Source of the DNA: Morchella semilibera
Lineage: Eukaryota; Ascomycota; Pezizomycetes; Pezizales; Morchellaceae
DNA: 64,000 nucleotides
NCBI GenBank assembly: GCA_009192285.1
Contig: CM018610.1
Location: forward strand, 606,751 to 670,750
Direction of reading: 5' to 3'
Position numbers and translations under genes: made by a program. Under the pieces are notes generated by a model that worked only from the letters and a program-made list of their open reading frames with translations, made no database searches and was not told the origin of the DNA. This document shows, in pieces, positions 126 to 62,900 of the stretch (the first letter of the stretch is position 1; each line of letters starts with the position of its first letter).

Positions 126-2172
126 GGAATAAGAGGATGTATATGTAGTATATGCATGTATGTATAACCAACGAGACCTAGCAAGTAAAATCTAAAAAAC
201 TTTGGGTATTTACATGGTATGCAGGAATGTGACCATAAGGGGATTTTGGTACCAAACTCTTGTCCCTCGCAAGGTTTATGTCATTCACCAAGAAAGACTA
301 CTAGTTCTATCGTCCACAGAACTGGGGAAAACCAAAGCAACCCACCCGACCCAGCCTAGTAGTGGTATGTCAGGCCTGAAATTTGTATGCAATGACCTAA
401 CCCCCAGTCTGACACGCTACCTGGCCAGGGGAATTCATATGTATGGCGGTAAAGTAGAGTACACACATCAGTAAAAGAGGGCTAGCCCTCTTCACAGCGG
501 TATCCAAGAAGGAAAGTCAACAGAAATACTTAATATGTAGAGAATTCTACTCATGTAGTGGAAAGCAAAACCCCTAACCAACATGGATGCTCAACGAAAC
601 ACAACACTATCTCTATCTGCCGTATGCTATATTTGTTACTTCCCTCGAACCTCTTCGTGCCAAACACCCGCCACTGATTTAGCTTGTAGACCGCTTACTG
701 TTCACCGAACCCACTCACGGACGCCTAAAGAGCGATATGCTACCTACAACCTACTACACATTGAAAGGGCAAAAAAAGAGGAAGAGGAGTAGAGTTCGGT
801 ACCCAGGATTCCCGCATGGTCACCCACTGCAGTACTAACTAGGCGATACGGCGCTTATGCACGGCAGAGCGGACGGGATGCCCAATTTTCGCCGTTCTAT
901 GACCGAACACATGGTTGATATCAGTTAATGGATCTTTGTATGGGCATCTTTTATGTTACGAGCATTTGGACACGAACTGCTGGGGTCCTTTCCCCCAGGA
1001 GGATGTATGTTGTATGTGGCCGCCTTTAGCAGTATAAAATTAAAACCATTATCGGAATTAAGGGAAAGGGGGCCGATATCACTCTAATTTGATATTAATT
1101 GCTGGGCCAAAAGCTTTTTCGGGTCATACTTTACTACATAGTATTAAAATTTAGAGGTGACCAAGTGGGCCGGGTTGGGCTTGATCAAGAGAACTTCTGA
1201 GAGGATTGGGACAAAACAAGCCTCAACGGCTTTGAAGCTCTGGGTCGAGCTGGTGGTGTACGTGGGGAGGTCGATAATTGAGAGTACTTGGGTGTTTAAT
1301 CTGACCGCTATGGAGTACCTTATATGGCCATATAAGAGTGCAGTTGATCACATACTAGATAAGTAAGCCAGGGAAAAGCCTTAGACACCTTGACTGGCTA
1401 TGGGCAGCGGCTGCGCATCCGGAAGCAGCCTTTTGTAATTTGAATAAGATATAGTAGATAATACTCGTTAAGTATTCAATCAACATTGAGCACAGGAGAG
1501 GCATCCTAAATACCTATAAGACAATCACATATAATTTAAGTATGTGTGCCAGACACATACATAGTCCTAGGCGCAACACCCAGCACAACACAACCGTGAG
1601 ATGTTTGGGCGAGTGATATCTCATGATTAGTCGGTCCATTCGACGGGCGAATTTTGTCAAAACACGCGACCTAGTCCGCGGGGCCTCTAGACCCGGCAAA
1701 TGAGTAATGAATTAAACTCCACCGCTGACCTTTAGCCATAGATGTCCGCCAGAGCGGCTATCATGAGGGCAATGTTTTCGGGACAACCCCCGCCGGCGGA
1801 AGGCATCCATAGCTAGCCCTGGTCTGGTTAGTATATAAAAGGTCATGTCCCCAGACAGGTCCGTCCTATGATGGCACGTTCTTGACCCGCCATTGATTAG
1901 GGAATGTACGGAGGGTATGGAAACGATCAGACGGCAGGTTTCTGACTTCTGGTCTCCGTCCCACCCGGTAGCGCCGACTCAACCACTCGCTGTACTGCCA
2001 TTCTTTGCCGCCAGGGGACGGAAATCGAAAAGAATTACAGTTAAGAAAATCATTGATGGGTGATATTACAGTCAATTGGAGGTTACGACTACAAAGATAC
2101 ATCTCGACTTCCTCCTGCCCTCAAACCGTCGTGCCCCCGGGCAGCACCAACCCGGGTCCTTCAATTCCCCCT
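126..2172. other. Intergenic, no gene recognised
   Basis: Only short open frames without family resemblance or convincing splice structure occur here. The stretch from 1100 to 1900 is AT-rich and reads like neutral spacer. The 3' end of the esterase gene lies just to the right. Confidence 0.5.
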
Positions 2173-16200: not shown

Positions 16201-16790
16201 AGCCGAGTCACCCTCAACGGGGCTAGGACTATGTCTTGACAGGTGTTTGCATAGGGTTTGTTGGCTGTTGATTGCATCGGAAGGTGGTCCACTAGGGCAT
16301 AACAAAAACAATATCAACAGCCGAAATTTGTTGAAAATAAAAAGAACACAGCAGAGTGAAATACGTACGTTAGGATTGTCAAAATTAGCGTCAAGGAGAG
16401 TTTATGGCTCTGTATCCGTTGAATAATTGAAGAAATGGTTCGTTCTGTGAGGGACCATTTCATACGGCTCCAAACACCCAATTTACCACTGAGTTTCAGG
16501 CGATTCACCTCTTTCTCCAGCTCGGAGAACGTGCACATACACCCAACCAGCGTGAACGAAAGTTGGTTGACGTCAATCATCGATGCCCTTGAGGCGTTGA
16601 GCGAGGTCTCCGACGACCTAAGGATCAAATACTGTATTCGAGTAAGGGCGTAATTAAAGTCGAGTATTTCTTGAAGAATAGATTGAGCAAAGAGTGGCGC
16701 ATTAGTGCAGCTTGATATGAACTGACTGATCGCAATAGACAGATTGGCTCCGACCGCGACTAACCCGACTATAGATGCGCCAACCTCCAT
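13285..16790 (-). CDS. Helo-like N-terminal domain protein with about 25 homogenised ankyrin repeats
   Basis: Two exons (16790-16369 and 16291-13285) join through a 77-bp GTACGT..CTAG intron into 1142 residues. Residues 1-141 match the fungal N-terminal domain seen on many STAND/NLR-like proteins. It has a hydrophobic MEVGASIVGLVAVGANLSI start, helices with a LILRSSE..SLNAS turn, and a KLSGKLGVWSRMKW segment. Residues 142-325 are a Ser-rich linker of the type found in ankyrin homologues. Ankyrin repeats of 33 residues (G-R-TPLHIAAEHGHEGFGKLLLDRGA) run from about 326 to the end, with many units nearly identical at DNA level (99-bp period). No NACHT, NB-ARC or kinase module lies between. Likely a cytosolic recognition or scaffold protein, possibly in non-self recognition; that role is inferred from the architecture. 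The last repeat is degenerate (LYPMTNYERRDFAKLLLDY). Confidence 0.85.
13440..15660 (-). repeat. 99-bp tandem repeats encoding ankyrin units
   Basis: About 22 units of 99 bp lie inside the ankyrin exon. Blocks alternate between two subtypes (EHGHERFGKFLLDRE and EHGHEGFGKLLLDRG) in a higher-order pair of about 198 bp between 14860 and 15310. That pattern indicates duplication of unit pairs or gene conversion. Confidence 0.85.
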
Positions 16791-18304
16791 TATATGATTA
16801 TCGCAGAAGGGTAGTGCTATAACTTTGGTAGAGTGAGTAGAAGGATGCTGGTATGTACGTGGGGAGGGGGCTGTAGCTACCTCCCCTGATATTGCCGTGT
16901 GCTGCTGCGGTCGGGCTGTGAAAAACGCCGGGGATAGGAAATACGCGCAGCTGGTGAACAACTATTCCTGTGTATCTTCCGCGAGGGGTAATTACATGTA
17001 ATGGAAGTTAATCCACTGGCATATATATCGTACGCGAATATATACATACATACATAGAACAACAAATCGAACTGGACTGAAACTACATGCGATAGTCCTG
17101 TACCCTATTGATAGTCCTTACATGTAATCCACAGGTTTTCGCAAGCGACTGTATTAATCTAAAGATGTCCCGACCTAGTTGCTTTCGCCAGATGTCCCTA
17201 GTCAAGACACCCACCACCACTACCACTACCCGCGAGCCCTTCCAAGAAGAGACTCTAGCCGATCCGGATATTATGTACATGTAGTTATTTCACTATCTAA
17301 TTAGTTTCGAGCTTAGCAGAAAGTTATCATTCTCTTTTCAACCATGATTAACGACACTTCATAGAAATGATTCCCCATTTATTAAATATCTTCAGTGGGT
17401 TTTTAGAATAAGTGGGACGATATATATGGATGTAGGTACTCCCCACCCTACGACGTATACGAGGAAACTATAACGGGAGTAGTCCCCCACAATAAAATAT
17501 TTCCTAGCTCGCCCCTACTAAATATAATTACCTATAGCTAGCGTGATCATGAGTTAGCGACCTTTTCAATAGATTGCATCCTACCATATCGACAACAATA
17601 GTTAGTGGAGTTGGCTTTAAACACGAGGTCAAAGGTATAATTTCTGAAATTGATGTCGAATTCAGGCCCAAGAGATACCGTTCTACACAAAAACCCTCTG
17701 TTGAGGCACAAGAGCAGGTCATCACAGTCGATCACTCGAGCGCCAAGCTATATATCCCATGTTGCCCAATCATTGACACCCCCACGTGCCAAGGCTGCAC
17801 CCCCTCCCCTCCCAAGCCCATGATTAGGCCAATATGCTTAACTTAACTCCCCCCTCATACGGTGTTAGTGCCGCAACTGCAATATTTGCTCTCTGACTCC
17901 GCACCTGTGCGGGGACAGAACATCGCGACTTTTCCTTTATATTCCAATATTCACGGTGTCAAGATCTCATCCTGGCTGCTGATCATCTGCAGCACTACTC
18001 AATGTGTAGTTATTCCGAGGACGTTAATGATGCGCTGGCGGCCTAAAGTTGTGGTGAACGTCATATGCCGGGCTGTAGCTGTGAGGGTGTCTGGCCAGAA
18101 ATAATCTCTATCAGGAGTGTCGATGCTTATCTCCCTATCCCATCAATCGGGGGAGGGGTAGGAAGGGGGGGGGGGTCCACGGTGGCGATATTTCTATTTG
18201 CCGTATAGTACAAGTACCCCCCCCTTTCCCCTTCCCATCACCCAACTCCTCCTCTCCCAACTCTCAAACTGTCCAACCAGCCCCGACGACCCCAAGCCAC
18301 AACA
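16791..18304. other. Intergenic
   Basis: It contains the promoter side of the Helo-like/ankyrin gene, the second 30-bp repeat copy at 17125-17154, a G-run near 18160-18174, and a pyrimidine-rich tract at 18215-18300. The tract just precedes the next ATG, as is common in fungal core promoters. No gene is recognised. Confidence 0.45.
17125..17154 (+). repeat. Copy 2 of an exact 30-bp dispersed repeat
   Basis: Identical to 11857-11886, direct orientation, 5.27 kb apart. Confidence 0.7.
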
Positions 18305-19558
18305 ATGCTACGACCATACCCCCCATTCCCGCTCCTCTCGCTCCCTACCCCGCTAATCGAAACTGTCGCCACCCATCTCCCCGCTCCCTCTGTTCTCTCT
18401 CTTTTTCTGGCCACGAAGCGCCTGCACTTCCTTGCCCCGCTCCTCTCTGCCCGCTGTACCCCCGCCGTTCTCCTTCTTCAGGCCTCTAAAACAAACGACC
18501 TCCCACTCGCGCTCTCTTCGCTCGCCGCCGGTGCTCCTATCGACTCCACGACCACCACCTCCCTCCGTACCCCACTCCACCGTGCCGCTGTATACGGGTA
18601 CGAAGCACTACTCATCGCGCTTCTTGACGCCGGTGCATCTCTCAATCTCGCCGATAGCTACGGACAGACACCGCTACATTGTGCCGCGGGCGCAGGGCAG
18701 GAGGGTGTGGTGAGGGCGTTGGTGGAGCGAGGCGCTGACATAAACGTTACCGATAAGATGGGATACACGCCGCTGCACTGGGCAGTTAGCACTGCGGGCT
18801 GCGATGGTATCACGCGTCTATTGCTGGATCGGGGAGCCAGGGTCGATGCGGTTGGACGGGGAGGCGTGACGCCACTGTTGCTGGCTGTGGGTAATGGAGG
18901 GCTTGTAGCAGCGAAGCTCCTGGTTGAGAGAGGCGCTGAATTTGCTGCCGTTGACGAGAAGGGGAGAGGTGTGCTACATGTTGCCGCTGCGGCCAGCGGG
19001 ACACTGTCGCTGGTGCAGTGGATACTAGGGATGGGTGCGGACGGCGATCGGAGGGATGGCGATGGACGGACAGCACTGATGGGGGCTGTGCAGTATGGAT
19101 CCAAGGATGTAGTCAAGGTGTTGCTGGAGAAGCAGGTTGATCTAAATGCCCGTGACGGCGTTAGGAACGAGACCGTCCTACATATGGCGACCAGACGCGG
19201 TGATCAGGCGATTCTGTGGATGTTGCTGGAGGAGGGCGTAGACCGCAATGCAAGGAATGTCGATAACGAAACAGCTCTACATGTGGCGGTGAGGGAGCAC
19301 CAGTGGGAGGCGGTCCCACAGCTACTAAAGGCAAAAATCGACCTGAATGCGAGGAATAGAGAGGAGGGGACGGCGCTTCATGTCCTAGTTGACGAGGGGG
19401 TAGATGGGAAGGTCGAGGCGGAAGTGGCTGGGGGGCTGCTGGTGGAGGGGATCGATATCGATGCGAAGGATTGCCGCGGCGAGGATGTCTTGACAATTGC
19501 TGAGCGGAAGGGGATGAAGATGATGATGGCGTCGTTTAAACGTTTTGAACTTTCCTAG
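18305..19558 (+). CDS. F-box-like ankyrin-repeat protein
   Basis: This single-exon gene encodes 417 residues. The first ~50 residues (LLSLPTPLIETVATHLPAPSVLSLFLATKRLHFLAPLL) have the Leu/Pro layout of an F-box, which would bind Skp1 in an SCF ubiquitin ligase. Residues about 85-410 form nine or so ankyrin repeats (RTPLHRAAVYGYEALLIALLDAG, GQTPLHCAAGAGQEG, GYTPLHWAV, and so on). Unlike the neighbouring array, the repeats are diverged, with different codons and loop residues, so they look old and under normal constraint. A pyrimidine-rich stretch lies immediately upstream of the ATG. Likely a substrate adaptor; the target is unknown. The gene appears intact, with a clean start and stop. Confidence 0.8.
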   Translation: MLRPYPPFPLLSLPTPLIETVATHLPAPSVLSLFLATKRLHFLAPLLSARCTPAVLLLQASKTNDLPLALSSLAAGAPIDSTTTTSLRTPLHRAAVYGYEALLIALLDAGASLNLADSYGQTPLHCAAGAGQEGVVRALVERGADINVTDKMGYTPLHWAVSTAGCDGITRLLLDRGARVDAVGRGGVTPLLLAVGNGGLVAAKLLVERGAEFAAVDEKGRGVLHVAAAASGTLSLVQWILGMGADGDRRDGDGRTALMGAVQYGSKDVVKVLLEKQVDLNARDGVRNETVLHMATRRGDQAILWMLLEEGVDRNARNVDNETALHVAVREHQWEAVPQLLKAKIDLNARNREEGTALHVLVDEGVDGKVEAEVAGGLLVEGIDIDAKDCRGEDVLTIAERKGMKMMMASFKRFELS

Positions 19559-24190: not shown

Positions 24191-27100
24191 AAAATTAAAT
24201 GCACAAAGTGCAAACGGGAAAAGAATCTCGAAGAATATAATCTTGACAGACGGGGTCATCCAAGAAAACAATGTCGTCAATGTTTGGTAGGCACAATATA
24301 ATAGTATTAATGGGTATAACAATTAATACTAATGATAATATTTTAGACGCGGGAAACAATACGTAAAGAACGTAGGAATCAATTGAGAATATTAGAAAGA
24401 AGCAACAATAGTCAAGTAAGCCCGCATATGCAATTATATATACAATATAGTATTAAATCAAGTTAATAATATTTGAAACAGGAGATATTACAAGTACAAC
24501 GATCACCGGTATCGCCTCTTGCATTTTCATCTTCACGGCAACGTTGGGTATCTTTGAACCTCGGGGGAATGACAAGTATTTGCAGTTACTGTAATGCCGC
24601 ACATTGGATAACTGAACGGGTTCATGGTAGCACTTTAGCTGCGCCACGTTTCGAAAACTGTTGCAAAAAAGGGGATGTCATCTTGCCTGATTTACGTCCA
24701 GCACCTGAGTATTTGCGGTATTTGTTGGAATCATTGGATACTGTTGCAAGAGAGTTCAGAAACAAAATAAGAGAATATAATTCAGCGTTAGCATTCACTT
24801 CGGTGAAATATAATTCTGATAACAGACTGTCCGAAAGACTGGGAGCAGGTGTTACATGTTTTCAAATACATGGAGAACTTTATCACGTACAGGGCCCACT
24901 AAATCCTGCTCCTGCTGCAGTACCTACTTTTGCGCAATTATATTTTTATGATCCACAATATGCTGCTCGGGCCCGACAAGAAAGACATCCCAACTTGAAC
25001 GTTACTGTTTTGGAACGTCTAACAAATGAGTTAAACAATGTAAATCCTTTTGTAGGGGTTTATAAGACAGCAAAAGAACGTTTGGCCTCAGTGTCTTCTC
25101 AGGATGGGAATGCACGAGTACTACTGAACCCTCAACTACAGTTGATTATGGAGACAGGAGCTGATCGACGCCGTGAAAACTTGCCAACAAGCAATTAGGT
25201 AGCGGTCATACTTCCAAATGAATATGGTCAAGCAGGTTTCCGGGACATAGTACTTGCATACCGAAACCCTACAGAGAATAATCTATTCAGTATTATAAAT
25301 CCAAATCATGCAGCGTATATGCCACTGCATTACGTTTTGTTATTCCCCTGTGGTGACTTGGGTTACCATTGGAGCCTCGAGCTACGAAATGAAAGAGGCA
25401 CTCGGAAAAATCTCAGAATAAGCCAACGGGCTTTTTATAGGTAAATTTGACTCTTCGATAAAAATATGTAATGAATATACTCACATACATTAGATACCGG
25501 TTACATGAGCGGGGAACCGAGCCAAAAACATTATTTTTAGGGCAAAGACTGTTACAGCAATATTTGGTTGATGCGTGGGCTGTCTGCGATCAAAATAAAC
25601 TAAACTGGATCCGTTTGAACCAAAATCAGCTCCGTTCAGATTTGTACAATGGACTTGCAGATGCGTTGATTCAACAAGACTTTAATCCTGAAGAGACGGG
25701 ACGTAGAATTATTCTACCGAGCAGCTATACCGGTGGTGACCGGTATATGCAACAGCTATTTCAGGACTCTATGGCGATTGTTCGTCATTTTGGCCGGCCC
25801 ACGCTCTTTATCACTTTTACTGCAAATCCCAAGTGGACAGAGATTGTAGCGGAGTTGAAACCGGGTCAAACGGCTGTGGATAGACCTGATTTGGTAGCAA
25901 GGGTATTCCATATGAAACAACAGGAGCTTCTCAAAGAGTTAAAGCACAAAAATGTACTTGGTAGATATTTAGGCTGTGTTTGGACTATTGAGTATCAAAA
26001 ACGTGGCCTGCCGCACATGCATTTGCTCCTATTCCTGCATCCAGATGATAGATTTATAGACGCCGACCGCATTGATCAAATAGTCTGTGCAGAATTCCCT
26101 GATCCAGCAACAGATCCAAATGGGGAGCTTGAAGCAATTATCAAAAACTGTATGGTTCACGGGCCTTGCGGGAATGCTAATCCGAATTCACCATGTATGA
26201 CAGCAACCTCTCCTGCAGGTACTAAAACCTGTTCCAAAAGGTACCCGAAAGCCTTTCAGTCTGAAACGGTGGTTCAAGAAGATGGTTACCCACTATACCG
26301 AAGGAGAAACAACGGAAGGATTCATACAGTACCTTTACGAGGTTCAGCAACAGGACAAGCAACTTTCGATTTTGACAACCGATGGGTAGTACCTTATAAC
26401 CCATATCTGTCCTGGCGGTATAAGGCACATATCAATGTGGAGGTTTGCGCCTCAGTGCAAGCTATAAAATATATACACAAATATATATATAAAGGATCTG
26501 ACCGTACAACTCTGCAAGTTGGTGGGGAACTAGATGAGGTGCAGCGGTATCTCCAAGGCCGCTATATTGGACCGACTGAAGCTGTTTGGAGACTGTTTGA
26601 ATACGCTATGCATGAGGAACAACCATCTGTTACTCATCTGGCTATTCACCTACCAGGAGAGCAACCAATCGTTTATAATGCTAATGCTACTCATGAGGAA
26701 CTGTTGCAACTGATGGATAGAACACGTTCAACACTTATGGCTCATTTTCAGTATAACGCTGAGAATGAAGATGGTAGACAATATCTCTATCACGAGTTCC
26801 CCGCTCATTTTACTTATAATAGCCAGTCGAGAAGATGGTGTAGGCGTAAGCAAGGAACTGCTATTGGTCGGATTTATCACTGTAATCCTATGATGTGGGA
26901 AAAATATTATCTGCGTTTGTTACTGACGGTCGTACGGGGTGCCAAATCTTTCGAACATTTGAGAACAATCAATAATGTTCTTCAACCAACTTTCAAAGCT
27001 GCCTGTATTGCTCTCGGTTTATTGGATGATGATCAGGAGTGGATACAATGCTTTAATGAGGCAGTTATATTCTCAAGCGAGTCCTCACTACGTACTCTCT

Positions 27101-28806
27101 TTTCAACGGCAATTCTTTTTGGAGATGTAACCGATCCTACTGCTCTATGGAATCAATTCGCGCCAAATATATGTTATGATCTACCAAATACGTTACGGAA
27201 CAACCCTTTTCTCAATGTTCCAGCTGATTTCCCAGACCTCCATCTTGACTACGGGTTGTACCTTATTGCTCGCATGCTTGCAGATTCTAATAAGAATCTT
27301 TCCGACTTTGGGCTACCGGGGTATATATTTGATTGGAATCGATCTGCTGAGAATGAAATGATTGCTGCAGAACTAAATTACGACTGGAGTGTAGAGGAAA
27401 CGCTACGAGTTGAACGAGTGCTACAACTAAATGATGATCAACTGGAATGTTTCAATAAAATCGTTGAGACAGTTAGTAATACAGGATCCGGACAATTTTT
27501 TCTTCAAGGACCAGCGGGAACAGGAAAGACGTTTTTGTATAAAGCGTTGTGTAATCACTTTCGTTCTCAAGAGAAAATTGTTCTCTGTGTTGCTTCCTCT
27601 GGAATTGCCGCACAGCTCCTCCCAGGTGGCCGCACATCACACTCTCGGTTCAAAATTCCAATCAATATAAATGAAACATCGGTATGCAATATTAGTCGGA
27701 ATAGCATGTTAGCCGGTTTGCTCAAGCAGACTGCGCTTATAATTTGGGATGAGGTACCGATGCAGCATAAATACTGCTTCGAAGCAGTTAATAGAACACT
27801 TAATGATGTATGTGGTTCCGGGGATGATGCATTATTTGGTGGTATCCCGATCATTCTTGGTGGTGATTTCGCACAGATTCTTCCAGTAGTCCCAAGAGGC
27901 AACTGTGTGTCAACAGTTGAAGCATGTTTTCAGCGGTCGATTCTGTGGCCACGCTTTGAACTGCTTCGTCTCAGGATCAATATGAGGGTGCGTAGTGGAA
28001 GAGAAAATAATGAGTTCGGAAGTTGGCTTAGTCTCATGTCCCATGAACGTTTGTGGCAAGGGGTTATAAATCTTCCCCCATTCATTCAGCGGTGTACTAT
28101 GGTCTTAGATCTCTGTCACCATGTTTTTCCCCCTGACTTGGTTAGAGGTGCAGGTGTAAACCATCAGGCATTTTTAGGGAGAGCAATCCTTGCGATGCGT
28201 AATGATACTGTTGCAGAGTTTAATGATATAGTTCTTGGGCAGTTACCAGGCGAAGTACATAATTACTATGCGGTTGATGCTATTAGTCTTAATAATTCTG
28301 AGGAAGAAGCCAATGCGTTGCCTGTTGAATATCTCCAGAGCTTGAATCCCCCCTCAATACCACCCTCCAACCTTAAATTAAAAATAGGAGCTCCAGTGAT
28401 CCTTCTAAGAAATCTTTATCCAAAACAAGGTTTATGTAACGGAACGCGAATGACTATCACCCGACTTGAGCAGCGGTGTATTGAGGCTAGGATCTTAGGT
28501 GGAGATTTTGATGGGCATTTAAAGGTTATTCTAAGAATAAAGCTATCAACCAACGAAAAGGAACTGCCATTCATCCTAACAAGGAGGCAATTTCCTATTC
28601 GATTGTGCTTTGCTATGTCGGTAAACAAGTCCCAAGGGCAGTCATTGGATGTTGTAGGAGTTGATTTGCGGTCCGCACTATTTTCTCATGGGCAATTGTA
28701 TGTGGCATTATCAAGGGTTACCAATATCGAAGGGTTAAGGGTATTGCAAACAGAGGAACGGGGGTCACAGACTGAAAATGTAGTATATCCAGAAGTGTTG
28801 TTATAA
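24191..28806 (+). CDS. Helitron Rep-helicase with N-terminal zinc finger; one in-frame stop
   Basis: Exons 24191-24286, 24347-24415, 24482-25440 and 25494-28806 join in phase through GT..AG introns of 60, 66 and 53 bp. A small 5' exon with the start codon is not located. The first exon encodes a CxxC..CxxC finger (CTKCKREKNLEEYN then CRQCL). Exon 4 holds the Rep domain: FGRPTLFITFTANPKW, the HUH motif in GLPHMHLLLF, and the Tyr pair in IHKYIYKG. The Pif1-like SF1 helicase follows, with Walker A GPAGTGKT, IIWDEVPM and LYVALSRV. A TAG at 25196-25198 interrupts an otherwise continuous frame between NLPTSN and VAVILPNEYG; related Helitrons usually read a glutamate there, so one base change explains it. 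Unless read through, the copy is newly inactive. Confidence 0.8.
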
Positions 28807-30677: not shown

Positions 30678-33600
30678 TCATAACCTTACTCCTCTCATTT
30701 GTCGATCGAGTTCAGCAAATTCCGCAGCACGGTTAACACCACTCGCGAGCCCAACGCCGTAAATACCTCCAATGGGAGCACCGCATTCCGGACACGTCGT
30801 TTGTTGGTTTGGCATGCCGCAATCGCCGATAGTAAACTAAAGACATTGTAAAGCGTCAGCAAGATGCCGCTGAGCAAGTTGGGCTAAGGCATAACTTACC
30901 GGGTGACCGTTGGCGCAAGTATACCACCTACCAGTACTACGAAACTCTCTTGACATAGCCTGATGCACCAATCTCCTCTCCTCGGCGCTGACGCTAGTGT
31001 AGAATGGGTCTCTTCCTCTCAGTAGCTTCCGAGCTCCATCAATCTGGGATTTGAGCGGACCCACAGTGCCCGGAAGCCTTATGCTCAGAGCGTCGCAAAT
31101 ATCTAGGCTTCTCTCCTCCTCTTGTCTGCCGTGTTCGTTAAAATTGTCTGTGGATGGACGGCTCTGCTCAGGATTGTCTCCCTGCTGTTTGGGCTGTGCA
31201 TTTGTTTCCAGCCGGTATAAAGCAAAGAACTGCGCCCGCCGAAGTCTTGCTTCGACCTCATATTTTGAGAGCTTCCCCTTCTGGCATTCCTCAATAGTCT
31301 CCGAGCATAGCCCGTGCAAGCTTCGGAGCTCCCTCAGCATCTGGTTCCTGAGCAGAACGACAGAATTATCAGATGCAGCGAAACCTTCGGCGATTAGGTG
31401 TGTGTCCCACAAGCTTTCCCATCTGAACGAGAGGAGCAAGTTTTGACTTTTCAAACGGAAGCTCATCTGCACTGCAGAACTATCTACCACAAAGTTCCCT
31501 TGGGCATTTCGCCTTCTCTGGGCACTAATAGCCATTTCTCGAACCTTGGAGTAGGGCTGTTCCTCCTCTGACACAGTGCCGATAAAACGCTGGATCTTGG
31601 TACCCATCATCTTTGTCCTATGGGTCCGCTCCTGAACGGCCAGTGGAATCTTCATTTCGTTTCCTCGTACCTTTGGAGTCGTATTGAGCCTTCTAATGAA
31701 CTCATCGCGGTTGGCTTGAAACAGATCTTGAGCATCAGAAGCCTCCTGGAATATTTTGAGGAAACTCTCCTGGGAACTCGTGCAGAACCTTCGAGTTGAC
31801 TCGTCTAGGTGGGCCACTTTAACAATGCGATTGTATCTGTGGAGGTCCCTAAGAGGTGACCGGCAATCTGGACAGTTCTTGACTACCAACCGTTCCGGAG
31901 GTTCATCATCATTACCTCTAGTGCTTGTGCCAGATCCGTTAAGGACCTTTGGACCAATGATCTGCCCAAGCTCATCTATCTCATACGCGTTCTTCATGCC
32001 CATAATACTATCGTAAGTATCCACAGTGTAGAAATGACCACAGGTTGGAACAATGATTGGGTCTGTATCGAGATCGATCTCAGAGTAGGGCTCAAACATA
32101 ATCAAATCAACCACCCTCTCCAGGACATTATCATTTCCACACTCTTGACAGAATTCCACAGATGGACACCTTTCTCCGCATACAGATGGGCACTGGTGGC
32201 TGCAGTCAAGCTGTTTTTCGCATCGCTTAGAGCACGGGTTGATGTCGCACGGAACCGCACAAGGCATCTCGCATCTCTGTTCCCGATGAACACATGTCCA
32301 GGAACACCGCTCCGCACAAGGAGCACAAGGCTCGGTACAAGTCTTACCACACCGCGAATGTTCACAGCGGATCTCGCATCTCTGCTTGCAAGGTGGACAT
32401 GCTTCCCCCTCGTGGCAGGAGCTGATGCAGGTGTGTGGGCAGTTGGTGTATTTCCTCCCACACGGCTTCTTGCATTGCTCATGAACAGAAATGACCGTGG
32501 CACCTACTTCGCCTTGGTTTCGTACCCTCGTGCACTCAATGCAGCGAGATAAGCACTGGTGTCCGCAGGGTAGAAGTCCTCCGCAGGGCTGAGAGCATCG
32601 GTAGTCTTCGGGGTCCTTGTAACAATCCATCATCACTTCATGACCGCACGCTGACAGCTTCCGCTGAACCCTTTGGCGGCAGCGGATCTCCGACAACTCT
32701 TGCAGTTGGTGACAGCGAAGGGATGGCGGCGCGTGCCCACAAGATAAAAGCACTCCGCGTACCTTTTCGTCACATTTTCCGCAGGCCACACCACAAGGCT
32801 TTGAGCAGATATGCGTACAGTGTTGAAATGTCCGATTGCAGGGTTCCAGACAAACTGTGCTTTGATGAAGGAACTCCGAGTGACATTTTTTCAAGCATGG
32901 GTGACCACAGTCTAGACGCCATTCGCAGCGCTCGCTGCAGCCTCCTTCGGGGGAGAACAGATGAAAGTCATCGGGCTCACTGATGAATATTTGCGTTTCA
33001 CGGTGGCGGGGACAGCATAGCTCGAGTCTTTTGTCGATATTTTGGCCTTCCTCAAATATAGAAATCACCTTAGACCACATGTCGATGGGGCCGCATGTCT
33101 CCGCGTTGCCAATGATATACATCCCATCTATTGCTCGGCTGTGAATGTCTCACATGGTTAGTTGAAAGTGCACTAACAGTTTTGTGATTGTCATGAACGA
33201 ACCTCAATAATACATTAATCCTGTTTGATGTTTTCAAAAACCCACATTTCCTCTCCTTGTTACTTCTCACCAACGAGATGATAATGACTCTGGCCTCCTC
33301 TCCCTAAATGACAAGTTAGAATCGAGACAATCTCGAAGAGAGAATTCTGGAAAGGCTCAGATATATACCTGAAAATTATCTACTGTAGCAACCCTGACCT
33401 CGTTGAGAAGACTTCCCTTCTTTACCTGTTTTGACGGAACCAACACTGGGACCACGGGTTGCAAATCTTCGTCACCGCTCATCTCCTCGTCCAGCTGTTC
33501 CTGGTCTCGATCACCCACTACGACTTCAAACATTGATGCCAGTTTCCGCCGCAACACGAATAGCTGTCTTAGGTAAGGTGACAGAACTGCAATCTCTCCA

Positions 33601-36600
33601 CCCTTGTATACACCCTGCCTTGATAGGTGTCGCACCAGCTCAACCACCATATCGGCCTCAAACTCATTCGCATGCGATGTCTGAATAAGCTCCAGCTTAT
33701 CCGCGCCATCTTCAGGCACCCTGTGGTCCATCCAAAACATTCTACGAGCCATCCCTTTGACAGTGGGATGAACGGTAGTATTGGGGTGGTCAACGAGATA
33801 TGGATATAATGTATTCCTCACAAGACTTGCAATCATCGGGTGCATTCGTCTCTGGGTATCAAGGCTTGCAACAGGGAACTTCTTCCCTCCGTAGCTTTCC
33901 ACTTCAGCAGTCCTCTCAAACAAGGATGTGTCAAGCCCGTACGCCTTCCCTCCGCGGGGGTTCTCCATCGAGAAGTCATGGTTCATAATCTGTGGGCGCA
34001 GCTGCAGATGATCCCCTATGAGGATTGCATGCTCCACGGTTGGCAATAAAGCGCTAAGAATGTGTGCTTCAAGTACTTCCGCCGCTTCTTCACAGATCAG
34101 GATCTTTGCATTGACTGAGCGGATGAGATCTGAGTGGGAGGCAAAGCCGGTGGTTGTTACGCCAATGATGTGACTTTCTTGGAGACACCGCCGTTCTTGT
34201 TCTTGATACTGCCTTGTTAGATTCAGGCGCTCGGTGGTGTGGTCCTCTGATCCTTTGAGGAGCTTTGAGCTGGCAAGTTCCTTCATCGAGTCGTGCCAGT
34301 AGTCCAAGAGCTTCATCTTTTCAACACGGGACATGGCAAAGACATTAGTTCCCAACAAAGCATCTACCGGTCTATTTGTTCGCGGGATTCGGTTATGGTC
34401 TAACCCTCGGCCGGAGATCCATTCACGGATGATGTCTCCAGTACCCCGGGCACCTCGTCTTCCCCTCTGTTTTACCCATCCATCCTCATCTGGCTCGTTG
34501 CTGAAGAGCTCCATAAACGCTACTGGATGGTGTTCTTCAAGAAACTCCTTTAGGACTTTTGGATCTCTTGGGTTAATGAGCTGTCGGCATGCCTCTTCGA
34601 TGGATGATTCAATTTGTAAGATATTCTCGCGGGCTTTGGCAACTTGGTAGCGTTCGAGACGGGTGCGGTCGGCCTTTTGAGCGATATTTTGGAGAGAGAG
34701 AGCTGCGACGGCTTCGGACTTTGAGCGTGAGCCGATGCGCACAATGTTGGTGATTCCGTCCTTCAACAGATGTTCGAGAAACTGGTCGAGAGCGTGATTT
34801 GTATAGCAGCTAGTGGTGGGTCAGCTTCTATAGATAATTATAAAAGGTGAGTTATGAGCGAGACCTACACACAGATAATTGGGCCGATGTTTGTTTTTTC
34901 TCTATTATCCAACAAAACCTTCACTATCTGAATGCCAAGATATGATTTTCCCGTCCCCGGAGGACCCTGGATTAAGGCCAGCTCTCTACTTAGACTCGCG
35001 ATCAAGGCATCACACTGTCCGTGGTCCAGGGTGGTCCTCTGCCGAAGGTTCTCAATACTGAACTCTTGGCCTATCGAATATACTAAAGATTGGCTGTCGG
35101 TGGTAATGCTTTTCAAGTCCATGGAAACCCCCGGTTTTGTCATATAGAGTGGAGGAGAAACATCGACTTCTTTGGAACTTGGGCCTGACGGGTATTGGTA
35201 TACTGGGGATGGAGCCAGCCACTTTGGAAACGGAACATTGCCTGTCTTTGAGACCTGCTGTAGGCACTTCAAAACTGGATCAAAGGACGTGAAGAGAAGT
35301 CCCGGGAATTCGACAAGAACCTGTGTAGTCCCTTCATTGTTATCGACATCCTTGAATACATTCTCAATATCAACTTCTGACACTGTCCCAGCAAAGCGGA
35401 GAGTAATCATCCCCCTATGCTTGTTACTCGCAAGATCTTGAACCCCCTCCATCATATCCGAGTCAGTATGCTGCTGGTGCTTATTCCTTTTGTTCTCTGA
35501 GGCGTTGACAGCGCGCTCGCAGACAACGAGGAAGGTACTCCGTTTGAAGTTATCAACTAAACACAAGAGAGACCCAATCTGGAGATACTTTGACTTTGCC
35601 CACCACTCACCCCTGGCCTTATCGGTCAGGGCCTGCACTTTTGATGGCTGATCGAAGGTGGTATTGAGAACCAATCCGTCCCGTTGCGAACATTTGATCC
35701 TCTCGATTATTGCATTCTGATACAGGAGTGTTCTCACCCCCGAGTTCCTCCCTTTCTTCTTTCCTTTTCCGCCCTCCTCTACAAGTTCCGTCCAACCGTC
35801 TTGAACGGCTCTTACTGCCTCCCTGATCTGTCCGGCAGTGTCCTCCCTCAGAAGTCGAAACTGAAAATCGAGTACCCTCGCAATACCCTCGAGATGATGG
35901 GGATACTCCAGTGCCCTCTGGGGCAGGAACTCATTCCTATGAGAACTGATCTCCTGGCTTGAAGGTAGAATCTTGATCTTTGATATGTCTGCATGATCAT
36001 TGTCGTGTCTGGGTCCCTCTCGAGACAACTCTCCCGGAAAGTCTACGGAATACCTCACAAGGTTCTGCAATGGCGTGTCTGTAGCCGTTTTCATTCTACT
36101 GCTCGCACTCGGGACCGCGTCCGCCATTTGAAGGAGGACCTTGATGCGATTGAGCTCTTCTTGAACACAGCGATAAGTGTAGTTAAAGGGTCCCCCCGAG
36201 TCTCCATGTCTTGTGCTTAGAGTGATGAGAGTGTTGGCGATCTTCTTGAACTGAGCCTGCACTGCCGCGGAGTCGTTCAGGTTCAGCGTGTTAAAGAGAG
36301 CGGTTGCTGTTGGAAGCAGTGCACCCTCGAGTTCATCCCTCGACTCGGTTTCAGCTAGTCGCTCAAGCTGTTCCACTACCCTAGAGAAGAAGTCGATCCC
36401 CCGTCGCCCACCCGGGCCATATATAAAGTTGAAAATTGTTCCAACCTCCTTCTCCAGAACCAATGACGCCCGCATCTCCTCATGCGCCACAACCTTTAAG
36501 AACATCAGACAGTGTCTTTTAAATCCCATCCCATTCGGTGAGTATCCAACGACAAAGTTTGCCTCAACCAACTGTAGAATTCTTCTCAACCCACGATCAG

Positions 36601-37055
36601 ACCCGAGATCTCCGATCAACTGTTGCACCGACTCCGAAGTCCCAATCTCCAGAATCTTGTGTGCATCTGCCAAAAATCGCTCCATTTGGTCCGCGGTCAG
36701 GCCAGAGAGGGGCCCACGGGCTGTGCGTGCACGACTTCCGAGTAGCTCGGACCAGCCTTTGTAGAGAGAGGTAGCACTAGTGGGATCCTCTGGCGGTCGA
36801 GGGATACTTGTATCGTGAGAGAATCGGCAAGTGTCGCCAAAACGGCAGTGGCCACGTGAGAGGAAGAAATTGCATGGAGGCTTTGGTGGGGGAGGGCCTG
36901 TAGAGGTGTGGGCATAGCGACAGTTGGGAAAGGCACAGCTACCAGTTCTCGCGAACTGGTTACAGACTCGTGTGCTGAAATAGTTTTTTAGTGACGAAGG
37001 TTATACATGGACTTAATAAAGGAGAATGATACTTTTGTCTTGGCAAAGACGCCAT
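30678..37055 (-). CDS. ZNFX1: ZNFX1-type RNA helicase (NFX1-type zinc-finger protein)
   Basis: Six exons give 2022 residues: 37055-37033, 36974-34869, 34809-33369, 33303-33203, 33138-30900 and 30836-30678. All phases agree. The 23-bp first exon supplies the start. Two CCCH fingers follow (C12, C21, C26, H30 and C42, C51, C57, H61). A helical region precedes an SF1/UPF1-like helicase: Walker A GPPGTGKS at 678-685, YTNHALDQFL, motif II EEAA at about 950-953, LIGDHLQLRPQ, and VDNFQ/GEEA with RINVLLSRA near 1190-1226, assembled across two introns. Cys-rich NF-X1 fingers run from about 1288 to 1560. The C-terminal RZ-type finger (WYTCANGH, GDCGM, CPECGAPIGG) is formed by the last splice. Family members act on RNA in small-RNA silencing (S. 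pombe Hrr1, C. elegans ZNFX-1) and antiviral sensing (human ZNFX1). The gene looks intact. Confidence 0.93.
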
Positions 37056-56891: not shown

Positions 56892-57150
56892 AACCCTAAC
56901 CCTGCCACAGTATCTCACTCCCTCTCAACTGGACCCGAGTTTGTAACAGTATCTTACCCTTGTACTCGGGGCAGGTAAATAGTACCGGACAATGCAAGTT
57001 TTGTCTCTGGGCTTTTTTTGCAGCAGTTCTCGCCTAGTACGCACACCCATTGGCGAACCAAAAACCTTTATTGTCCGGTACTTTTTACCTGCCCCGAGTA
57101 TATTTGACGGGACCCTAGACCGAACCACATTGTTTTCCAGGGTTAGGGTT
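56892..57150. repeat. 13-bp telomere-like inverted repeat around a fold-back element
   Basis: AACCCTAACCCTG at 56892-56904 is perfectly inverted at 57138-57150 (CAGGGTTAGGGTT). The fold-back at 56963-57100 lies between them. Confidence 0.7.
56963..57100. mobile_element. Fold-back MITE, TACTCGGGGCAGGTA-ended
   Basis: Arms 56963-56993 and 57070-57100 are 31-bp inverted repeats with one or two mismatches (TACTCGGGGCAGGTAAA, AGTACCGGACAAT and inverses). The tip TACTCG matches the TACTCG tips of other elements here. It lies 176 bp upstream of the GTPase start codon. Confidence 0.8.
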
Positions 57151-57275: not shown

Positions 57276-59987
57276 ATGCGTAGCAATGAGCACCAACGAA
57301 ACCCCGCCGCGGCGGACACAGGAGAGCCAGGGACAGGGACAGGGACACTGACTGGGACGGCGACCCCCTCGCAGGCAGGGACTGGGCTCGGGACCCCCTC
57401 AGAGACTGTATCTGAGATTATCCCTTCGACACTATCGGAGCTGATACGCCTCGGGCTGGAGAACACCCGCCTGACCTCCGAGATCAGGCGGCTGCATGCG
57501 GAGAACAGCCGTCTGACGGGGGAGATTGAGCGGATGTGCCAGTTTAGTGGGGACCTGACTGAAGCGCGGATGGAGCTTGCAGAGAAGGCGCGGAGGATGA
57601 TGCAGATGCGTGGGGAGCTTGCGGCCCTGCGGGCGGAGGCAGCGAGGCTGTCGGATACGAATGAGGAGATACAACCGGGGGCGGCTCGGGGTAGTGCGGA
57701 GCTCTCGTTGGAGCTGGGGAGGGTACGGGGGGAGTTGGCTGATGCGGTGGCAGCAAAGATTGCGGCGGAGGGTAGGGTGGTGGAGTTGGAGGTGGAGGGT
57801 ACTCGCGCTGGGGAGGAGATGGCAGTGGTAAGGGGGGAGATGGCGAGTGTTAAGGAGGAGGTGCGGTCGGCGGAGGCGGACAATGGGCGACTGCTGGCTG
57901 TCAACAGACGCTCGGCGGAGGAGGTTGCGGCGCTCCGGGTAGAGTTGGATCTGGTGAAGAAGCAGCTTCAGGCGGCGCAGGGAGTCCAGGTAAGACTCGA
58001 AACTACCAATAGCCAACTCACCCACCATATTTCTTGCATGATTACGCAGTTGAACCAGGAGGCTACGGCCCTAGCTGCGGCAAAAGGTGCATTGGCGGAG
58101 GCTACGGCCGCGGCAGAGGAGAGGGTCTTGCAGACGCAAAAGGAGATGGCCCGGTCTGACGGTGAATTGGCCACGATGGGAGAGGAGCTGGCGAGGCTGC
58201 GCGCCGAGCTGCACTCAGCAGGGGCGGAGAATGTGCAGCTCCAGGAACTGAATAGGCGGGCGGCGGCGGAGCTGGATGCGGCGATGACGAGTGTTGCCGC
58301 CACAAACACCAGAATCGATATTCTACATGCGGAGGGTAGGCGGTCGGCCGAAGAGGTTGCGGCGGTCAGAGAAGAGTTGGATGCAGCGAGAAATCAGCTT
58401 CAGACGGCGCAGGCAGACTACGCAACGCTCGAAATGGAAAAGTCTGAATTGTCCAAAGATGCAGCAAGAAGCACACAGCGCCTAGAGACAGAGGCCTTCA
58501 GAGCTGTGGCTGCGAGACAGTCATTATCTATCACTGTCTGGGAGCTGCGTCTCGAGCTTCACACGATCACCGCAAAGAACAAAGAGCTGGAGGCGGAAAA
58601 CAAGGCCGCTGTAGCAAACCTGGCAGCGGCGAATGTCGAACTCGACACGATAAAGTCAGAGAAGGAGAGGCTACAGGAAAAGGATAGGATGAAGCTATCA
58701 GTGGCGAATGACGAGCATTGCGCGGTAAAGACAAAGAACGAGGAGCTGCAGGCGGAAAACAGTGTGAATGCATCAAAGTTAGCAGCAGCGAATGACGGGC
58801 TTCGCGCGATTAGGTCAGAGCACGAAAGGCTGCTGGTGGAGAATAAGGAGACTGCATCGAGCCTGTTAGCGACGAATTATGAGCTTCGCACGGCAAAGAA
58901 AGAGATAGAAGAGCTGCAGGTCAGAAATTGTGATATTTCGTCCTTGCTGGACCTATTGGATAAACAGCAAATCGAGGAGTTAAATCGTCTTAGAAGGGTT
59001 ATGAAAGAGGATATTGGCGCAAGGTGTCGCTCGCGAAGAATAAACGAAGAGCTGCAACAGACAAAGCAAAACCAGAAGATCATGGAGGATCTTCGGAAGG
59101 CCCAGGAAGAGAACAGAAGTCTGGAGGAGAAAATTAGGATGGACAATATAGCGATGAAGATCGAACAAGATGCGATAACTCGAATTGAGCAAGAAGTGTG
59201 GTTGCGACAGAAGGTGGAGAAGAACCTGGAGGAAGGGATCCCACCAATTAAGTACCCTACCGGCGACCAAATCGCAGAGAAGAGAGCAAGTCTTAGATAT
59301 CAGGAAGGCTTTCTACACATTGCTATCACTGGTTGCTCTGGAGCGGGCAAGTCATCTTTGATAAACGCTGTCCGCGGTTATAAAAACCCAAACTTGAATA
59401 CTATATTTGGTGCTTTTACCAGTTTTGGTACAAATCTTGCCCCAACCGGAGCTAGCGAAAAAAAACCTGCGAAGATCCAACGATACACCGACCCGCACCA
59501 CTCGCGAAGATATCTAGCTTGGTATGATGTCCCCGGAGCTAGTAGAGTCCGTGTACAAGATTGGCAATATTTCAACGATCAAGGCTTGTACATCTTCGAC
59601 CTCATCATGATTGCTGTCGGCGACCGTATTACCAAGACCGACGTAGACCTTCTATTCCATTGTAAGCGATTCAACATTCCCACCTTTTTTGTACGATCCA
59701 AAGCAGATCAACACATAAGGAATATGGCGGACGACGATGAGAGCTCTGAGGATGAAGTTCGTCCCCTTTATATCGAATTCACCCGTGCTGTGTTCAACAG
59801 CATTTTAACCGAAGTGGGGCTACCACCACAAAAGATTTATATCGTTAGTAAAGAGACTCTTCGATTACTCAATGACGGCACTAGCAAGAGGCCTAAACCG
59901 AACTCCATTATCGATGAAGAGGAGCTTATGCGAGATTTTACTGATGCACTTCATAAGTGGTCAACCCCGGTTCCCACCGACAAATAA
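57276..59987 (+). CDS. Long coiled-coil protein with C-terminal IRG-like GTPase domain
   Basis: One open exon of 903 residues. A short Gly/Thr/Pro-rich start is followed by about 600 residues of Glu/Ala/Leu-rich heptads with recurring modules (ENTRLTSEIRRLHAENSRL; SAEEVAALRVELD and SAEEVAAVREELD; AAANVELDTIKSEKERL-type units from about 430 to 560), predicting an extended coiled coil. The last ~250 residues are a GTPase: P-loop GCSGAGKS at 686-693, switch-like TNLAPTGASE, D-x-x-G as DVPG at 751-754, IFDLIMIAVGDRITKTDVDL, and the guanine-specificity motif SKAD at 808-811. This order is that of immunity-related (p47/IRG) GTPases, which act on membranes of intracellular invaders in vertebrates; fungal versions are little studied. 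No membrane segment is seen. Role inferred only. Internal duplication of heptad modules is evident. Confidence 0.8.
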   Translation: MRSNEHQRNPAAADTGEPGTGTGTLTGTATPSQAGTGLGTPSETVSEIIPSTLSELIRLGLENTRLTSEIRRLHAENSRLTGEIERMCQFSGDLTEARMELAEKARRMMQMRGELAALRAEAARLSDTNEEIQPGAARGSAELSLELGRVRGELADAVAAKIAAEGRVVELEVEGTRAGEEMAVVRGEMASVKEEVRSAEADNGRLLAVNRRSAEEVAALRVELDLVKKQLQAAQGVQVRLETTNSQLTHHISCMITQLNQEATALAAAKGALAEATAAAEERVLQTQKEMARSDGELATMGEELARLRAELHSAGAENVQLQELNRRAAAELDAAMTSVAATNTRIDILHAEGRRSAEEVAAVREELDAARNQLQTAQADYATLEMEKSELSKDAARSTQRLETEAFRAVAARQSLSITVWELRLELHTITAKNKELEAENKAAVANLAAANVELDTIKSEKERLQEKDRMKLSVANDEHCAVKTKNEELQAENSVNASKLAAANDGLRAIRSEHERLLVENKETASSLLATNYELRTAKKEIEELQVRNCDISSLLDLLDKQQIEELNRLRRVMKEDIGARCRSRRINEELQQTKQNQKIMEDLRKAQEENRSLEEKIRMDNIAMKIEQDAITRIEQEVWLRQKVEKNLEEGIPPIKYPTGDQIAEKRASLRYQEGFLHIAITGCSGAGKSSLINAVRGYKNPNLNTIFGAFTSFGTNLAPTGASEKKPAKIQRYTDPHHSRRYLAWYDVPGASRVRVQDWQYFNDQGLYIFDLIMIAVGDRITKTDVDLLFHCKRFNIPTFFVRSKADQHIRNMADDDESSEDEVRPLYIEFTRAVFNSILTEVGLPPQKIYIVSKETLRLLNDGTSKRPKPNSIIDEEELMRDFTDALHKWSTPVPTDK

Positions 59988-62900
59988 AGTGCAGGAGGCA
60001 TTTTGGGCTTGGATTTCCATTATTTATTTTACTCTCTCTTCGGAGTGCGCGGTGACTGAGATAGCTGAGACAGGTACATTTGGTAATATTGTGGCAAGAT
60101 GGATGGCGGTGTGTAGTTGGTTGAAATTTTGGAATCAGAGAGCTGGGTTCCCTTCAGCCAACTGAGTCGATTTCTTTTTTTATTTGTACTAGCCGTGGTA
60201 GAGCCAGGCTGAACAATTCTGTTGTTTTTACACCGCTAGTTAGAGTCGTGTTATTTTGCTTGAACGAGATGTAACCCGTTGAACCTGGAGTTGAATATTT
60301 TAATTGAATAAGCACTACCTCCGAAAATCCCATTGACCTCAAGTTTTAAACCATGAGGTAGACAACATGCCAAAACTGATTATATACAGATGATTCGGAC
60401 TTTACCTCTCAAACTATAACTTATTCAGTGCCGCCGGGGCGGGAGTCAACAGGTACTATGCTTGGGACGTTGAGAACGATTCACTTCTTTCTATTGTCGG
60501 ATGTCACAAGTAAGCGAACATTGGGAGAGCAACCACCAAAACCACCAAAACCACCTAGTAAGTCGAAAATTTCAAAGTAGCGCTGTTGATGTGACACTTG
60601 AGCTAAACATATTATCACTACCAATGAGTCTATCTATAAAGTTGTCATCCTCAACTTCCTGGCGGTTGTTGAGTAACAGTTATCTGAAGTTGCGTTCCCA
60701 TACAAATTTTGGTTGCAATGAGAATGTTCGCTTACTTATGAAAACCGACAATAATATAGCGACAGTACTCCACTCTAGCTGCAACCCTCTTGCTCCTTGC
60801 AACCTCGTTCTCAACTCCGCCAAGAGTTGGGAATAGGGGGGTTCACCCAAACTCACAGACTTTTCTTAGGCTTCATGTCTTTGAGAATGTCTACAAACCT
60901 TATTCTTCCTCACAATGGCGTTCCATTCTCTATGGACGTCGTCTCTCCTCTCTTTGCGATGACCCTGGCCACCAGGTTTAGGCGACATTCCGGATCCCAA
61001 CCTAGTTTCTTCCTCTCGGGGGGGGAAGTGTAAATCTGGGCGGACCTTCCTTTACCACCACTATGCTAAGTCAATGAGCGAGTTCTTGCGGCGGCCCCTA
61101 AGGGCGTGTTCTTACGCCGGCGTGTTTAACGAAAAACCCACTCTCCTCGAAAGATTCTCCCTTTGGCAAGGGGATTCCGTCAAATTCTTCTCTCCTGCTG
61201 GACTCCCTTCTTCGGACTGCAACCGGATTCCTTCAGGCCCTCCATGTCCTCCTCGGGGTGTTACCCCGCCCGCGGATCCTATCCTTTTTGGACTGCAACC
61301 GGATCCCACCCACCCTCCTCCTGGTGTGACGTGTCTTGTACCACACACACGCCCACTCAGGCTCGCTACCGCTCGCAATCTCCGGCCTTCTTCGGTTGAC
61401 CGGTCACATTCTCTTCTTTTCTTATCTTCTTACGCAATTTTTTTTAACGAGGCCTCCGTGCGGGGTACTCTTTTTTTTTTATAGGCGGAAAAAGGTTGTT
61501 TGGGGATAGGTGCTCTTTATGCCATAGGGTTTCCCTGCATGCAATGTTCATGTACCTAGAATTAATTGAACTATATGAAACAAAAAAAAAAAAAAACTCC
61601 ACTCTAGCTGCCTCCGAGCCCACCGCACGACGGTACCTCCAAGCCCCACTATCTCCTATACGGTCTGCCGGCTGCTCGGCCCAAAGAGACTTCAAAGTAG
61701 TTTGTGTATTTCATCACTATAATAGTTTAATCAGCTAAACGAGTCTTCCCTACGCCCGCCCGAGACGCGATATATTGTATCAAATCTAACAATATAAAGT
61801 TGCCCATATGAGAAAAGCCCTTGGCGCCGGTACAACACCCCACATCTTGCACATCGAAAGGCCAACACCTCACCTCTGACCTAGCCGAGCCACACTTTAC
61901 ACGCTCTATGAGACTTCCGTATAGCGCACATGCCATGAACCAGTTCCCCGATTGTCCCTCGCTTGCTCATTCGGTACCGCCGTTAGGCCCAAGTAGATCC
62001 TCGCGTGGGACAACTCCCCGATGGAAGCTGAGAGGTCAGGCCTAGCGTAACCCTGGAGGCGGCCCTTCATGGGCGGGAATCTAGCATATAACGTTAGTCA
62101 ATGATGGTGACTAGAATGCTATTACTTCGTCTGTTACCAAAACTCTACCACTTGGCGCTGACCAGGCGCAGCGGCACCGAGAAAGCTAGCTGTGATTGGG
62201 GCTGTAACGCTGGAACACACTCGCTCCACAACTTAAAAAGAAAGGAACCACTGCAGGGTAGTGAAAAGCAAGGCTTTGGAATAGTTTCAAGAAAGGCTGC
62301 CCTGGGGGGTTTGATTTCTTCACTTACGGCAGGTATCAGGTGCAGCTCAGGAGATTACTACTTACATATAGCCTCCTCCAAAGTCCATAGCTGCGTAGGG
62401 TGTGGAGGGTCCTCCATAGTCTTAGTCATAATGGGGACCTCGTTCGGGTTGCCAGAGTCTTCCGTGGAGGGGATCAGTGTCTTGCTTTTGTCGCCCTCGT
62501 ATGATAATGTGAACTGCTCGCGGTTGTCGGGCGGGTTGAGACCTGCCAGGTAGCCCCCTCGGTGAGGGAAGGAGCGGCGTAGCCATTGAAGTCACACAGG
62601 GAGGGGTTCTGACCAGCATTGATTCTCGCCGTACCGTGCATGAGTGCCATTATTGCTTCTGTTTGGTGTATATGGCGAGGAGTGAATTAAAGAGGTTTCA
62701 ATCCACTGCCGATGATAGAGCTGGTGCGGTGCCAGAACTTATACATCACGAGCTCATCCATCCATCCTGAGAGACTCCTTGTCTTGTCATCCCCGCCTTG
62801 CACTCCTCTTCGATAATGGTTGTGGGTCTGTTTGAGCTCAGCTCGGTATTGATACTTTGCTTTCCTGATTTTGAGAATCGCCGAGGTCTAGGCCATGTTC

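Follow-up and report, generated by a model that had tools for sequence, protein, structure and literature searches.

IRGs are known as immunity proteins of vertebrates. The window, by which we mean the whole stretch of 64,000 nucleotides that was analysed, contains a frame read in a first-pass annotation as a fungal IRG-like GTPase fused to a coiled coil of about 600 residues. The locus raises the question of whether this protein is an IRG, and what an IRG built on such a coil would do in a fungus.

One frame encodes a long coiled coil and a GTPase

The frame lies exactly where it had been annotated and joins the coil to the GTPase without interruption:

57276..59987 (+): whole open reading frame, 903 codons plus stop, a single exon as read (chance test; dN/dS of the tail 0.36 versus paralog L020)
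57276..57425 (+): low-complexity N terminus, residues 1–50, with neither an MG start nor a hydrophobic segment
57426..59240 (+): coiled coil, residues ~51–655, second half less firm (periodicity and register)
58533..58943 (+): 84-nt (28-residue) repeats in the coil, five copies, 61–70% identical to the reference copy

It sits within an open stretch of 920 codons, whereas in 1,000 simulations of 3.2 kb under a first-order Markov model no open frame was longer than 325 codons. It is possible that an upstream exon is spliced into the frame, which is open from 57225.

The coil, which makes up two thirds of the protein, was judged by heptad periodicity with a shuffle test and by the a/d register. 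A heptad peak at 3.44–3.56 was present in all eight overlapping 98-residue segments starting at residues 1–344 (shuffle p 0.00–0.05) and in all five starting at residues 393–589; because p was 0.09–0.20 in the latter, the coil is less secure over its second half. Residues 51–655 contain one proline (134), and the hydrophobic a/d register is held over long stretches with several shifts. Besides the 84-nt repeats, the coil contains a 97-nt repeat pair at 76%.

The G domain is of IRG type

The motifs GCSGAGKS, DVPG and SKAD, on which the first-pass assignment had relied, occur in that order within the C-terminal part of the protein:

59256..59900 (+): IRG-type GTPase domain, residues ~661–875 (Pfam IIGP, solved-structure profile, AlphaFold2 model)
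59331..59354 (+): G1/P-loop GCSGAGKS, residues 686–693
59457..59465 (+): switch I; E728 retained at the position of Irga6 E106; residues 729 and 730 are lysine here and threonine in 12 paralogs
59526..59546 (+): G3 DVPG (residues 751–754) and switch II; ASR at 755–757, where 12 paralogs end in G-T
59697..59708 (+): G4 SKAD, residues 808–811
59985..59987 (+): stop codon, 45 residues past the G5 position (43 in L020)

Database comparisons bear out the IRG assignment. Pfam IIGP matches residues 678–826 with E 2e-11 and 44 bits (cut-off 24; profile positions 34–167 of 375), whereas the other P-loop families among the 11 Pfam families matched fall below their own cut-offs, including MMR_HSR1 (17.4 bits, cut-off 21.9). 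Among 45 solved-structure rows, IRGs fill the top 13 (Irga6 at 1.6e-10), and a profile of the 13 paralogs described below finds Irga6 at 7.6e-29 and the best non-IRG, mt-EngA, at 3e-8 in the best 60 of 91 rows. An AlphaFold2 model of residues 626–903 is ordered (pLDDT 83.6, pTM 0.79). The glutamate at the catalytic E106 position of Irga6 (E728) is invariant in all 13 genes.

Other GTPase identities, which the first-pass annotation had itself named as competitors, fare worse. Septin and AIG1/GIMAP give no match at E up to 1 in Pfam, in the 45 solved-structure rows or in the best 60 of the 91 profile rows. Ras matches one of the 13 family G domains at 0.003 and Roc one of 13 at 3.6e-6; Dynamin_N matches 3 of 13 (best 0.0013). 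NACHT, NB-ARC and HET were not matched by the window protein in the Pfam search and are not listed for any of the 13 family G domains.

Vertebrate IRGs had been credited with only short helical flanks; instead, in the available part of PMC4774019, Irga6 and its vertebrate relatives have a bipartite helical domain, with helices A–C before and F–L after the G domain. The window gene shows no such arrangement, and the fungal family has an N-terminal coil instead: helices F–L find no match in any family gene, in all 16 IIGP matches the profile is covered only as far as 157–198 of 375, and the 13 frames run on for 39–177 residues past G5 (39–57 in seven genes, 68–100 in four, 131 in L009 and 177 in L018) compared with about 180 in Irga6, by chain length. 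An extra exon carrying a helical domain could possibly be spliced on after these frames.

The window gene belongs to a family of 13

We searched the 56.76-Mb genome (23 contigs), in which profile match counts are lower bounds. At least 16 places match IIGP, all 16 over the cut-off, and protein searches recovered the same 16. Three times a match recurs on a near-identical copy of its contig (one pair on C9/C10, two on C21/C22; 99.9–100%), which leaves 13 distinct genes, every one with IIGP. These contigs are near identical over their common IRG loci, and IRG genes at 1.7 Mb of C22 and at 2.5 and 3.4 Mb of C21 have no partner, which points either to two haplotypes that differ by a rearrangement or to faulty assembly. 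The fungal origin that the first pass had read from the letters is supported by at least 49 Zn2Cys6 matches, contig copies included, this domain being fungal; HET has at least two matches.

A coil or linker ahead of the G domain is the norm across the 13 genes. The long coil had been put forward as a distinct architecture, which holds against vertebrate IRGs but is not peculiar to this gene. In the tree, the window gene groups with L020, L022 and L012 (97/96), and seven genes with a hydrophobic N terminus cluster (95/96); the placement of L013 and L009 is not firm. Five of the 13 genes are no more than 65 kb from a contig end (P 4e-4, only indicative, as the limit was chosen after the data were seen), and three of the five ends concerned carry terminal telomere repeats (C8, C9 and the right end of C21), which are absent at C14 and at the left end of C21. 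At the contig ends L045, L046, L049 and L052 these repeats alternate between TTAGGG and TTAG (a unit like TTAGTTAGGG) and are not plain TTAGGG.

Membrane anchors are predicted in the paralogs and not found in the window copy

MGxxxS is the pattern for N-myristoylation, a modification that is not common to all IRGs. L020, L022 and L012 have a predicted 18-nt first exon (MGNDAS, MGGGES and MGGGQS), then a predicted intron of 50–64 nt and then the coil; the predicted start of L013 is MGQR or MGQRVSHHHHR, by choice of donor. An MG first exon is thus predicted in 4 of 13 genes, with MGxxxS in three and depending on splicing in one, in models built from sequence alone that take, from several listed alternatives, the first acceptor downstream of a CTAAC-like site.

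Eight other genes (L009, L010 and L014–L019) begin with a more or less hydrophobic stretch and have in common, just past it, a PTKENETV-like motif, or more fully GP[ST]KENETV, located with a pattern fitted to these same genes. The best 19-residue mean hydropathy exceeds 2.0 in five of them and is 0.67–1.45 in L009, L015 and L016, where we are unsure of a membrane segment. Searching the genome for GPxxxNET gave nine places, five of them IRG paralogs, versus four for the backwards control. Of the other four places three were inspected, and at one of them a 77-codon frame, L040:4405-4635 (-), also resembles the paralog anchors, with a hydrophobic stretch (hydropathy 1.42) followed by GPSRVNET; neither a coil nor a G domain is among the listed frames around it, and it may be a chance match or another gene with such an anchor.

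The window gene has nothing comparable. There is no ATGGG from 56000 to its start and no MG exon was found; of two ATGGG inside the frame, one is in phase (58176, MGEELA) and does not fit MGxxxS; and no stretch ahead of the G domain is hydrophobic (best 0.77). As predicted from sequence, then, 12 paralogs would be anchored at the N terminus, three of them weakly, and the window copy would not.

Losses are confined to the switches of a constrained domain

In the profile alignment, residues 728 and 730 of the window protein correspond to E106 and T108 of Irga6. Switch I reads ETT in 12 of 12 paralogs and EKK in the window copy, so that the T108 position, threonine in all 12, is K730 here; switch II reads G-T in 12 of 12 and S-R in the window copy. 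Of 58 columns in which 11 or all 12 of the other genes agree, the window copy departs from four, all among the 11 switch columns (P 8e-4, a value that rests on switch columns assigned after the departures were seen). Other paralogs depart from near-invariant columns too (L009 13/64, L015 11/62, L012 4/62); some do so at the switch edges (L016 G115S, L013 A147G) and none in ETT or G-T.

For Irga6, the accessible sections of PMC3006384 describe T108 as absolutely conserved across mouse IRGs. Mutating T102 or T108 essentially abolishes GTP hydrolysis and strongly inhibits oligomerisation, the Thr-to-Ala mutants keep nucleotide affinity in the wild-type range, and neither residue contacts Mg2+ in the structures available to its authors. 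With T108 lost, no C-terminal helical domain matched and no anchor found, the window protein is IRG-like in its G domain yet not a canonical IRG.

The tail of the gene is nevertheless under constraint, judged from substitution patterns, its protein changing no faster than that of its sister L020. Over 311 codons dN/dS between the two is 0.36, a pairwise value that includes time before any split in function, compared with 0.35 between L020 and L022. With L022 as outgroup (309 codons), synonymous and nonsynonymous changes number 24/34 on the window branch and 26/36 on that of L020 (Fisher p 1.0).

The gene looks like a chimera

Upstream of its GTPase, the window gene ceases to match its nearest paralog, L020:

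57276..59036 (+): 5′ part, 587 codons, matchless elsewhere in the genome (at the DNA level; at the protein level at E 1e-6)
59037..60039 (+): stretch common to paralog L020 (C21:39.4 kb), 82.6–83% DNA identity (DNA alignment)
56963..57101 (no strand): foldback (MITE-like) element, 139 nt, 40-nt arms 90% complementary, recurring at 95–98% in at least 26 further places

The match covers the last ~316 codons, runs past the stop codon and reappears more weakly at 60221-60396 (69.6%); no match to L020 exists upstream of 59037, where exon 2 of L020 has about 43 residues versus 587 in the window gene. We therefore think that the gene looks like a chimera with its breakpoint near 59037, formed either by joining a copy of a 3′ half to a new coil upstream or by exchanging an old 5′ half for another. 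Two repeat families lie upstream of the ATG. The foldback element, to judge from its at least 26 other places at 95–98%, was probably mobile recently, and the second family occurs at 81–88% in at least 13 places; these counts are lower bounds, with 40 of 210 candidates scored. The telomeric end of contig C8 (678,588 nt, with TTAGGG-type repeats at both ends) is 11.9 kb away.

The window also contains an ankyrin-repeat frame at 13288-16401 (-), of 1038 codons, whose repeats at 13400-15600 consist of a 99-nt unit repeated about 22 times (87% matches), the pattern of recently homogenised repeats. A second ankyrin frame lies at 18209-19555 (+) and a Helitron-type helicase frame, 1114 codons without stops (Helitron_like_N and PIF1), at 25462-28803 (+). 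Adjoining frames at 33360-37000 (-) match CCCH zinc fingers, a ZNFX1 domain and AAA_11/AAA_12, as in a ZNFX1-like gene; beside it, 30840-33149 (-) has no Pfam match. A 5S ribosomal RNA gene is found at 791-910 (-).

A scaffold, decoy or brake is the leading explanation

We favour, at a probability of roughly 0.45, a reading of the sequence in which the protein of the window gene lacks an anchor, is impaired in hydrolysis, oligomerises through its coil and serves a fungal IRG-type family as a member or as a regulator (scaffold, decoy or brake). The family layout would run from a myristoyl or hydrophobic membrane anchor at the N terminus, through a coil or linker, to the GTPase at the C terminus. 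By analogy with Irga6, active paralogs would attach to a membrane and, with GTP bound, dimerise through their G domains and coat or reshape that membrane. The window copy, having kept G1, DxPG and G4, should still be able to bind nucleotide while being poor at hydrolysis and switching, and its ~600-residue rod would make it a soluble oligomer that acts as a scaffold, decoy or brake for the active paralogs. No feature of the window gene's sequence points to a regulatory role as such. A fuller picture, which we hold to be rather unlikely, is of a cell-autonomous, IRG-like membrane-GTPase system in ascomycetes, with myristoylated or otherwise anchored cycling effectors and a non-cycling regulator, the window gene, that arose when a new coil was placed on a copied effector G domain and the switches then changed.

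The closest contender, which we consider less probable than a regulator or decoy but by no means negligible, is that the gene is a recent chimera turning into a pseudogene: a 3′ half like that of L020 would have landed near a telomere behind an unrelated coil frame, lost its anchor and its switch function, and gone unused. Much fits this account, including the breakpoint near 59037, upstream of which the gene has no paralogous counterpart, the repeats directly upstream, the short distance to the telomeric contig end, the missing MG exon and the lost switch residues, which could themselves be early decay. What speaks against it is that all 903 codons are intact at a dS of 0.36 from L020, that the nonsynonymous share on the window branch equals that of its sister, and that the changes in near-invariant columns are limited to the switches, whereas general decay should scatter losses across the domain, an argument and not a proof.

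Function could instead have been retained in full, the protein being an active dynamin-like GTPase of IRG type that tolerates its switch changes and tethers or bridges membranes through its long coil; the P-loop, the E106 position, DxPG and SKAD are all kept. Membrane bridging had been suggested by the first pass, but with switch residues lost and no anchor found it fits the paralogs better, and with a lysine at the position where Irga6 mutants lose hydrolysis (in the part of PMC3006384 consulted) we regard it as improbable for the window protein. More improbable still is a structural coil protein, a cytoskeletal or septal rod with a G domain serving as a mere nucleotide-binding cap and no tie to defence or membranes. 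Such a rod would agree with a protein that is two thirds coil and altered in its switches, but this coil has no relative in the genome, and most of the family has a predicted membrane anchor. For the family as a whole, defence is the likeliest role by analogy only, and membrane remodelling is likewise suggested by analogy.

Comparison with known systems

Bacterial dynamin-like proteins resemble the window protein in having a P-loop GTPase with coil-rich flanks, but the similarity is very weak. Among 296 genomes of one bacterial phylum, IIGP matched at E 0.001 in six and exceeded its cut-off in one (24.1 bits), compared with none of 14 control genomes; by eye, that one protein reads as a bacterial dynamin-like protein. 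A scan of a contig collection gave at least 594 pattern matches; three loci among the matches listed are, by eye, one YcjF/DUF697-like and two EngB-like proteins. A scan of viral sequences gave 39 pattern matches, none of them a relative.

Fungal NLR/HET allorecognition proteins are likewise multi-copy, with several members of the present family near contig ends, and the ankyrin-repeat frame with its similar repeats lies in the same window; the difference is that the window protein has no NACHT, NB-ARC or HET match. The words GTPase, IRG and dynamin are all absent from the main text of the fungal immunity papers searched, and a literature search, with most subscription journals outside its reach, found no paper on fungal IRGs; automatically named fungal IRG members may already be in databases.

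Within the IRGs, regulatory members of the IRGM (GMS) type control the active ones, and by analogy these would be the functional parallel of the window gene. They differ in that the window copy keeps its P-loop lysine (GKS) and is changed in switches I and II instead.

The closest relatives are Irga6 (IIGP1) and the other GKS-type IRG/p47 GTPases, with which the likeness is in the G domain, the GX4GKS P-loop, the E106 position and DxPG. In the portions of PMC4774019 and PMC3393671 available, the Gly2 myristoylation site of Irga6 is required for vacuole recruitment; four fungal paralogs have a predicted MG start. Irga6 has both its myristoyl site and the threonine T108, and the window copy has neither. 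A fungal family of 13 genes that combines the IRG G domain with a corresponding lipid-anchor signal and another way of oligomerising would make it possible to ask whether IRG-type membrane attack predates interferon. Fungal hosts can be cultured and knocked out and so are open to such questions, and the contrast between this copy, altered in its switches, and its intact paralogs provides a natural experiment on which of the switch residues are important.
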